From assembly GCA_029260165.1 (NCBI GenBank), contig JAJDDT010000102.1, positions 124,001 through 188,000 of the forward strand: a stretch of DNA of 64,000 bases, in the 5' to 3' direction. Below, in pieces: positions 59,338-63,019 of this stretch. Numbering within the stretch: the first letter of the stretch is position 1; every line of letters begins with the position of its first letter. Source of the stretch: Phycisphaerae bacterium. Its GTDB lineage: Bacteria; Planctomycetota; Phycisphaerae; UBA1845. The position numbers and the translations under genes are program-made. The notes under the pieces are model-generated. The model searched no databases, was not told the DNA's origin, and saw only the letters and a program-made list of their open reading frames with translations.

Positions 59338-60027
59338 CTATGACTCGAAACCTCCGACGTGCCCGTCGGCGTACAAATAATTCCGATACCCGCCTACCCG
59401 CTGTTCGGACCCGCCCTCCTGCTCCTGCGTATTCGTCCGCGAGGAACGCGAGCCACCCTTGTCATGAAAATTCTGATAACCGCGCATAACCCAGACCGTG
59501 TTTGTCGGCACCGGGCTGTCGTTGCCAAAGAAATCCCGACGAATCTGACGAATCCGGTTGGCCATCTGAATAATCGTCCGCCCACGAAGCGAACCGTGCT
59601 CATAACCATATTGGTAGCTCGACCGCTCCGTCTCGAAATAGCTCCGCCCCGCCCGAACCCCGTCGCGACTGAACCTGCCCCCGCGATCATCCGGACATTC
59701 AAACGCCTTCGTGTCATTGCTCGTGTAAGGCCCCAACACATCGGTGAGGTAAATCGGATCGCTCGTGGAAAGCGGCGAAGGACCATACGACGGCATCTGC
59801 GACACATGGGGGTAGATATCATTGAAATCGGTCAGATAACCCTGCATGGCAATCCCGATCCCTTTCAGGTTCGCCCCACAGGTCACCCGCTTCGCCTGCG
59901 ACCGCGCATTGCGCAACGACGGCAGCAGGATCCCGATCAGGAGCGCCAATATCGAAACCACCACCAGCAGCTCAATCAGCGTAAACCCGCCAACCCGCCG
60001 CAATCTGAATTTCCCCAACATCATCAT
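59338..60027 (-). CDS. Prepilin-type (type II pseudopilin-like) protein
   Basis: A 229-residue protein with the class III signal RRVGGFTLIELLVVVSILAL, in which a prepilin peptidase cuts after the glycine before FTLIE, and a hydrophobic helix follows (SILALLIGILLPSLRNAR). The remainder has the planctomycete DUF1559-like style of xcpT/PulG-like proteins, ending KNYLYADGHVGGF-type (here YRNYLYADGHVGGFES). ATG 60027 is used; ATGs at 60024 and 60021 are alternatives. Upstream of the charged membrane protein. Confidence 0.88.
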   Translation of the reverse strand: MMMLGKFRLRRVGGFTLIELLVVVSILALLIGILLPSLRNARSQAKRVTCGANLKGIGIAMQGYLTDFNDIYPHVSQMPSYGPSPLSTSDPIYLTDVLGPYTSNDTKAFECPDDRGGRFSRDGVRAGRSYFETERSSYQYGYEHGSLRGRTIIQMANRIRQIRRDFFGNDSPVPTNTVWVMRGYQNFHDKGGSRSSRTNTQEQEGGSEQRVGGYRNYLYADGHVGGFES

Positions 60028-60123
60028 GACCCCAGGAATCGCTTTCCGCGCACAACACCTCGCCACAAACCCAAACGCATCAGCCCGCTTGATATTGCGA
60101 GCAAAACCTGAAATATCGCGGGA

Positions 60124-60474
60124 TTAAGTCAACGCCGCGCCATACGCAGTCTCACTGAACCCGACGATCAACGTCGTCCCAACCCGAATCGTCGGTGCCC
60201 GCAGCTTCCCGCCGGGGCCTAAAAGGCCCTTGAGCAATACCTCCCGACCTGGGCGATCTGTTATCATATCGTACGATACCACCTTTTTTCCCCTGGCGAT
60301 GACAATTTTCGACATCTCACCCGCCAGTTTCAGCGCCTCCGCCCCCTCGTAAGACACCTTCCTCGCGTCGATCTGGTTTTTCACGTTCACACCATTTTCC
60401 GCAAGGAACCCTTGCGATTTTCTGCAGGATGTTCACCCCGCCCGGTGATAGTACCACGCAATTTCCCTGACCAT
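60124..60474 (-). CDS. ArsC/Spx-like thioredoxin-fold protein, likely selenoprotein (UxxC)
   Basis: Reading through one in-frame TGA (60433-60435, codon 14) gives a 116-residue protein: MVREIAWYYHRAG, then U14-T-S-C17, RKSQGFLAENGVNVKNQID, and the C-terminal KLRAPTIRVGTTLIVGFSE. This is the layout of short ArsC/Spx-like proteins whose redox motif is CxxC; here the first position is TGA. Start ATG 60474 has GAGGTG seven bases before it. Downstream of the TGA a hairpin meets the bacterial SECIS rules (see separate entry). The conventional reading, starting at GTG 60390, would drop the active site. It could also be a pseudogene with a stop. No sel genes lie in this window. Confidence 0.75.
60400..60435 (-). 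promoter_or_regulatory. Candidate bacterial SECIS element after the in-frame TGA
   Basis: On the minus strand, 16 nt after the TGA, CGCAAG and CTTGCG form a perfect stem with loop GGTTC (or a 7-bp stem with loop GTT). The loop starts 22-23 nt after TGA and has G in its first positions, which fits the published bacterial pattern (loop 16-37 nt from UGA, 3-14 nt, G among the first two). Confidence 0.7.
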
Positions 60475-60605
60475 CCGAAACACCTCAGTTCAGCAAAACG
60501 GTCATTCTCAGCACCCACCGCATTGTAATTGGCCCACCGTAACGGGCCAACCGGCTTTGAAGAATTTGCGGCGTCGCTTATATTCGGATCGGAGGAAATC
60601 GACCC

Positions 60606-61211: not shown

Positions 61212-61943
61212 ATGAAGGTTTTGGGCGTCATCCTGGCCCGCGCGGGCAGCAGGGGTCTGCGCGAAAAGTGCATGCGCGATCTTCTTGGGCGACCGTTGAT
61301 TGACTACACGTTCGACCACGCGCTGTCGTCGGAAACATTATCGGACGTCGTCTTCACCACCGACTGCGAGGCGGCGGCGGACTTGGCTGCGTCGCGCGGG
61401 ATTGACGTCGTCGATCGCCCCGCGGAGTTGGCGACCGACACTGCGACGGTGGATTCGGCGGCTCGTCATGCGGTGCGCGACGTGGAGGATCGACTTGGCG
61501 AGGTTTTCGACGCGGTCGTGTTGCTGTACGGGAACATTCCGGTGCGCGGTGCGGATATCATCGATCGGGCTGTTCGCCATTTGGCGGAGACGGGTGCGGA
61601 CTCGGTGCGGAGTGTTGCACCGGTGACGAAGCTGCACCCGGACTGGCTTCACCGGCTCGAGGGTGACAGGATGGTTGCGTATCGTCCGAACAGTATTTAC
61701 CGACGTCAGGACCTCGAGCCGTTGTACTTTCACGATGGCGCGGTCATCGCCGTCACGCGTGAATCGCTCTTCATGGCGGAGGACGCGCCAACCGATTGTC
61801 ACGCGTTTTTCGGATGGGACCGTCGCGCCGTTGTGCAGGATGCGCACGAGACGGTGGACGTGGATGGGTTGATCGACCTTCGCGTCGCGGAGGCGATATT
61901 GGCAGCCGGCGAGCAACCCGTTTTTTCGCAGCACTCATCATGA
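61212..61943 (+). CDS. neuA: Acylneuraminate cytidylyltransferase (NeuA-like)
   Basis: Activates a sialic-acid-type sugar with CTP to give the CMP-sugar. The 243 residues show VILARAGSRGLREKCMRDL, the CTP loop of this family (usual GSKGxPxKN, here RAGSRGLREK), FTTDCEAAADLA, RPAELATDTATVDSAA and the later Gly/Asp blocks LLYGNIPVRGADIID. It is similar to both CMP-NeuAc and CMP-pseudaminic/legionaminic enzymes, so the exact sugar cannot be told. The stop overlaps neuB's ATG (ATGA). Confidence 0.92.
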   Translation: MKVLGVILARAGSRGLREKCMRDLLGRPLIDYTFDHALSSETLSDVVFTTDCEAAADLAASRGIDVVDRPAELATDTATVDSAARHAVRDVEDRLGEVFDAVVLLYGNIPVRGADIIDRAVRHLAETGADSVRSVAPVTKLHPDWLHRLEGDRMVAYRPNSIYRRQDLEPLYFHDGAVIAVTRESLFMAEDAPTDCHAFFGWDRRAVVQDAHETVDVDGLIDLRVAEAILAAGEQPVFSQHSS

Positions 61944-63019
61944 ACGACGATCAGGCCCATTCCCGCTCGCGCAGGACGATACGAATCGGTGACCGAGAGG
62001 TTGGGTCCGGGAACCCGGTGTTCATCATCGCGGAGGCTGGTGTCAACCACAACGGTGATGAATCCACCGCGATGAAAATGATCGACGGGGCGGTCGCAGC
62101 CGGTGCGGACGCCGTCAAGTTTCAGCTTTTTGATGCGGAATCGCTGACCACCGCGGATGCACCGACGGTGACCTATCAGTCCGAATCCACGGGCAACCGA
62201 TCACAGCGGACGATGCTGCGCGAGTTGGAGCTTTCGCTTGACACGTTCGGGCGTCTTGGAGAGGCCTGTCGGACGCGTGGGATCGAGTTCATCCTGACAC
62301 CGTTCACCTCGAAGGCGGTGACGAGTGCGTTGTCGCTGAATGTGTCAGCCATCAAGGTTGCGTCCACGGATATCGTCGATCACCGGCTGCTGGAAAGCGC
62401 GGCGGGGACGCTTCTGCCCGTCATTGTCTCGACGGGTGCAGCGCACGAACACGAGATAACCGACGCGGTGGATTTGCTTGCCGGGTCGGGGGCGAAGGGT
62501 CGCATGATCCTGCTTCATTGCATCAGTGCGTACCCGGCGGGGGTGGCGCAAGCGAACCTCGGCGCGATCGCGCGGATGGCGAGGCGATTCGGTTGCGTGA
62601 CGGGGTTTAGCGACCATACGGAATCGACGGTTTCGGCGGCAATGGCGGTCTGCGCCGGGGCGGAGGTGTTGGAGAAGCACTTCACGCTGGATCGCACCGC
62701 GCGGGGTCCGGACCATGCGATGTCTCTGGAGATTGATGGGTTGGCGGACTATGTACGCATGGCGCGCATGGCGGGTGAGGCGATGGGTAGTGGTGCGTTC
62801 GGGATGCAGCCTGCTGAGACAGAGGTGCGCAACGCAGCGCGAAAACGCGTGGTGGCTGCCCGTGCCATCAGGGCGGGTGACACGCTCACGCTGGAGATGC
62901 TTTCGGTGAAACGGGCGTCCTCGGGTCTTGAGGCGAACCATCTGATGTCGCTGGTCGGGCGACGGGTGTTGCAGAATATGCACAGTGACGAGCCTGTCCT
63001 GCTGGAGAGCGTGTTGTGA
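61940..63019 (+). CDS. neuB: N-acetylneuraminate synthase family protein (NeuB-like)
   Basis: PEP-dependent condensing enzyme making nine-carbon sialic-acid-type sugars. 359 residues: TIM barrel beginning FIIAEAGVNHNGDESTAMKM, VKFQLFDAESLTT, VIVSTGAAHEHEI, GFSDHT and LEKHFTLDRTARGPDHAMS, then a C-terminal SAF (antifreeze-like) domain with RAIRAGDTLTLEML. Metal ligands of the family (two His, in LLHCISAYP and LEKHFT) are kept. ATG 61940 overlaps the neuA stop. Could be a legionaminate or pseudaminate synthase. Confidence 0.94.
   Translation: MNDDQAHSRSRRTIRIGDREVGSGNPVFIIAEAGVNHNGDESTAMKMIDGAVAAGADAVKFQLFDAESLTTADAPTVTYQSESTGNRSQRTMLRELELSLDTFGRLGEACRTRGIEFILTPFTSKAVTSALSLNVSAIKVASTDIVDHRLLESAAGTLLPVIVSTGAAHEHEITDAVDLLAGSGAKGRMILLHCISAYPAGVAQANLGAIARMARRFGCVTGFSDHTESTVSAAMAVCAGAEVLEKHFTLDRTARGPDHAMSLEIDGLADYVRMARMAGEAMGSGAFGMQPAETEVRNAARKRVVAARAIRAGDTLTLEMLSVKRASSGLEANHLMSLVGRRVLQNMHSDEPVLLESVL

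Follow-up and report, generated by a model that had tools for sequence, protein, structure and literature searches.

Does the single in-frame TGA of a gene encoding 116 residues on the minus strand of a planctomycete draft contig mark an error, a decayed gene or a selenocysteine (Sec), and to which protein family would the product then belong? The locus lies within a 64,000-nucleotide stretch of DNA from a Phycisphaerae bacterium (the window, in whose coordinates the gene is described) and runs from an ATG at 60474-60472 to a TAA at 60126-60124, with the TGA of codon 14 as the sole in-frame stop between the two. The GAGGTG upstream is separated from the ATG by 6 nt. The product reads MVREIAWYYHRAGUTSCRKSQGFLAENG...RAPTIRVGTTLIVGFSETAYGAALT, in which Sec is embedded in the motif WYYHRAG-U-TSC and UTSC corresponds to residues 14-17. 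The coordinates, the ATG, the TGA at codon 14 and the upstream GAGGTG had all been given in an earlier note on this DNA and proved exact, as did its expectation that a standard gene caller would report only the C-terminal 88 residues: translation with table 11 yields just the GTG ORF 60390-60124. The features of the gene are as follows.

60124..60474, minus strand: selenoprotein gene, assigned to the NF041106 family (ArsC_rel_Se_1); 116 aa with TGA read as Sec, then a TAA stop
60433..60435, minus strand: in-frame TGA, codon 14, predicted Sec of U-T-S-C, from the codons of homologues
60424..60426, minus strand: Cys17 (TGC), UxxC partner of Sec14; 114 of the 115 homologues have Cys here and L029 has Ser
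60481..60486, minus strand: GAGGTG, probable ribosome-binding site, by sequence inspection
60124..60390, minus strand: truncated 88-aa GTG ORF lacking the active site, from table 11 translation

The in-frame TGA is real and is rightly read as Sec, in a family that is already known. A search with the read-through protein covered 100 genomes, the window's own and 99 relatives, and identified 46 carriers, nearly all with one internal TGA. A congener protein, at 68% identity, has the TGA at the identical codon; identities of the rest are 39-67%. Among 115 distinct homologous proteins, drawn from the relatives, from loci of named genomes and from loci of the phylum, codon 14 is TGA in 103 and TGC or TGT in 12, with no other codon; taken together with position 17, the motif is TGA-Cys in 102, TGA-Ser in one and TGC/TGT-Cys in 12. 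The named loci are mostly from Planctomycetota, other labels being Acidobacteriota, Myxococcota, Zixibacteria, Rokuibacteria, Tectomicrobia, Actinomycetota and Alphaproteobacteria. The TGA of the congener and the exclusive occurrence of TGA or Cys at this position in the 115 homologues rule out a chance origin of the TGA. An in-frame TGA aligned with a Cys of homologues, as looked for in bacterial selenoproteins, is therefore at hand, which bears out the earlier proposal, to be checked by a Cys at position 14 in homologues, that the TGA replaces the first Cys of a CxxC. In an alignment of 29 sequences, residues W7, H10, R11, Q21 and L24, which flank Sec14, do not vary. On a tree of the 115 homologues, which was built from few columns and contains many open forks, the Sec and Cys labels change at least eight times, as expected for interchangeable redox residues. 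One homologue, L029:1373-1717, retains the TGA while its Cys17 is replaced by Ser, giving U-T-S-S.

Since the window belongs to a draft assembly of 119 contigs, and TGA and TGC are one base apart, the TGA could have arisen as a sequencing error, or else as the stop of a pseudogene derived from a former CxxC protein; a misread TGC or TGT had also been named as an alternative in the earlier note. The homologues refute this explanation, to which we give next to no probability: 102 further distinct homologues, encoded in separate genomes, carry the same TGA, the remainder of the gene is open and conserved, and a hairpin downstream of the codon is kept only alongside the TGA. It is also hardly credible that the functional protein begins at GTG 60390 and has only 88 residues, with the upstream part left untranslated. 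Although this is the ORF that table 11 yields, the ribosome site and the ATG lie upstream of it, the 13 codons ahead of the TGA encode the near-invariant WYYHR motif, and, judging from the structural model, translation from the GTG would leave out the first strand and helix 1 along with the active site. The conservation of WYYHR, the TGA of the homologues and the hairpin led us to reject it.

The hairpin is located just 3' of the TGA, in the position of a bacterial SECIS, and is regarded as the candidate element for Sec insertion.

60399..60417, minus strand: predicted SECIS hairpin, from the centroid fold and covariation in Sec homologues (5' arm 60417-60410, loop GUU 60409-60407, 3' arm 60406-60399)

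It consists of an 8-bp stem, UCGCAAGG-GUU-CCUUGCGG, with 15 nt from the TGA to the first stem base. Folded as a single sequence, the region has an unexceptional energy (z -0.43). Its conservation was evaluated in 102 Sec genes and 12 Cys genes against a null model in which the protein sequence was kept fixed and synonymous codons were redrawn. All seven pairs of a fixed stem were present in 62 of the 102 Sec genes, where the shuffles gave 0.5 on average and never more than 3 in 300 draws, and in 0/12 Cys genes; in a free register, stems with 6 or more base pairs were formed by 94 of the 102 Sec genes (shuffle mean 16, maximum 23) and by two of the 12 Cys genes, the latter being chance level, and these counts are not independent events, the homologues being related by descent. 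The shuffles and the Cys homologues point the same way, to a hairpin that appears to be tied to Sec. An alternative register, shifted by one base and with the loop AGUU, is adopted by 16 homologues. Pairs are exchanged in a compensatory manner: pair 21-35 is G-C in 69, C-G in 15, T-A in seven and A-T in one, and pair 26-30 is G-C in 45 and A-T in 33. The same covariation is visible at the level of codons, where Gly GGG pairs with TTC and many Glu GAG with TTT, and where GCG...GCG changes to GCT...GAG and GCC...GGC. Six Sec homologues (L122, L144, L145, L146, L149 and L150) do not form the usual hairpin, and may use a different form of SECIS; these six are of the RADDF/RADAF type after UTSC. 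The Sec call of the earlier note thus stands, and to it is added a SECIS hairpin that the note had left unnamed, present downstream of the TGA as in bacterial selenoproteins and covarying.

The machinery for Sec insertion, the search for which had been recommended in the earlier note, is encoded in the same genome, where selA, selB, selD and tRNA-Sec are all present, as in bacteria that make selenoproteins. The tRNA-Sec scores 68.1 bits, above the gathering cut-off, and has the anticodon TCA (UCA). The genes for SelB (315.4 bits, C5:17760) and SelA (541.6 bits, C5:19682) adjoin about 105 kb ahead of the window start, on the same contig. SelD (367.8 bits; L044 1408-2529) contains one in-frame TGA and is itself a selenoprotein, with Sec in CAGUAGK (...YASCAGUAGKLP...); as a second gene with such use of TGA, it provides an internal control. 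Across the 100 relatives, SelB is above the cut-off in 43 of the 46 carriers, the other three being incomplete assemblies (63-83%). The co-occurrence with SelB is moderate (p = 0.015) and that with tRNA-Sec is not significant across the relatives, since most of them make selenoproteins anyway. In nine carrier genomes no tRNA-Sec was found; the four hits of a laxer search that were examined are tRNA-Ser, so that the tRNA-Sec of these carriers is either absent from the drafts or too divergent. Planctomycetes that use Sec are already on record (PMC4807772). Conservation and covariation are strong comparative evidence for Sec insertion, in which SelB, directed by the hairpin right after the UGA, would place selenocysteine at position 14.

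By sequence comparison, the protein is almost certainly a Sec-containing member of the NCBI family NF041106, 'ArsC family (seleno)protein'. It matches this profile with 127.9 bits (cut-off 85, E 2.1e-37) over residues 5-111 and profile positions 1-107 of 107, and its UTSC, close to the N-terminus, agrees with the UxxC/CxxC motif looked for in this family; all 29 aligned members match the same profile. The motif and the exchange of Sec and Cys are the same in NF041106, from which the window protein shows no substantive difference. In a 2026 review (PMC13188914), NF041106 appears under the name 'Arsenate reductase-like protein' with the motif UxxC, and credit for it is given to a 2008 study of the ocean metagenome (GOS; PMC2398784), the table of which contains an 'Arsenate reductase 2' (cd03032, UxxC). 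Because of this credit, GOS Arsenate reductase 2 and NF041106 are probably one family; the former, likened here by its description, shares the motif and an ArsC/Spx-type domain with the window protein. A literature search for alternative names of the NF041106 family found none. The selenoprotein family has been on record since 2008, and NCBI's protein library already includes it; what is new is its member in a planctomycete draft genome.

The earlier label 'ArsC/Spx-like' described the fold and the superfamily correctly; the protein, however, is part of a separate named subfamily, NF041106, and fails the models of both ArsC and Spx. The AlphaFold model (pLDDT 93.6) displays a complete ArsC-type thioredoxin fold, in which Sec14 immediately precedes helix 1 (residues 15-26) and Cys17 lies in the first turn of that helix. 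In both structure comparisons the closest folds are those of Spx, YffB and ArsC-related proteins, with Z up to 8.8 and modest Foldseek E-values (1e-3). From the motif and the fold, we predict a stand-alone thiol/selenol oxidoreductase with a thioredoxin fold, an assignment that we consider likely. The selenolate of Sec14, where the first helix begins, would most likely attack a disulfide or another oxidized substrate, Cys17 would resolve the intermediate to give an Se-S bond, and this bond would be reduced by thioredoxin or a thiol system; both this UxxC chemistry and the reductant are predictions based on motif and fold.

A true arsenate reductase, with Sec attacking arsenate, appears improbable. 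The ArsC superfamily model PF03960 is matched by 27 of the 29 members, and ArsC structures are among the fold matches; on the other hand, TIGR00014 (ArsC) is matched by only three of the 29 (best E 0.0092), and the window protein gives no match to it at E up to 1. The superfamily fold is common to both, but the published tables (PMC13188914; PMC2398784) list Sec-containing ArsC proper separately, with the motif UxxS, whereas the window protein has UxxC. Moreover, A93, which precedes the presumed cis-Pro and is invariant in the 29 aligned sequences, takes the place of the Arg found before Pro in the LRRP/KRP stretch of Spx and SACOL0876.

The same Ala bears on the relationship to Spx/MgsR (TIGR01617, NF002459), which share with the window protein the ArsC-type thioredoxin fold and a CxxC near the N-terminus. 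Spx structures provide its top matches in sequence and in fold, including the best PDB matches, as would suit an Spx-like redox-switch regulator, with predicted binding to RNA polymerase and the Sec-Cys pair as the switch. This reading is nevertheless unlikely: the window protein is far under the cut-offs (18.2 bits for TIGR01617, against 75.05), has Sec as the first residue of the motif, carries Ala instead of Arg ahead of the presumed cis-Pro, and, ending at 116 aa, is short of the C-terminal tail present in the 131-residue Spx chains. In this genome, TIGR01617 has no match at E up to 0.001. It is very doubtful that the NF041106 family senses redox state in the manner of Spx, the Sec-Cys pair acting as a faster transcription switch in bacteria without ordinary Spx.

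For the predicted oxidoreductase, the locus offers a clean case in which ordinary annotation keeps the last 88 residues and loses the active site. With its Sec/Cys replacements and covarying SECIS, NF041106 is well suited to testing how SECIS elements are predicted in Planctomycetota.

The gene directly downstream of the selenoprotein gene is of the prepilin type.

59338-60066, minus strand: prepilin-type gene (N_methyl, DUF1559)

Clustering of the flanking ORFs of 80 loci and the window found no widely shared partner gene besides one loose cluster of 25 loci with a prepilin-like look. Within the available flanks, the prepilin motif lies beside the selenoprotein gene in only three of the 115 loci, and the neighbourhood is for this reason given no functional reading. 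Elsewhere in the window, at 61212-63019, genes for a cytidylyltransferase (PF02348) and NeuB (PF03102) adjoin, two genes that a nonulosonic acid pathway would be expected to include.
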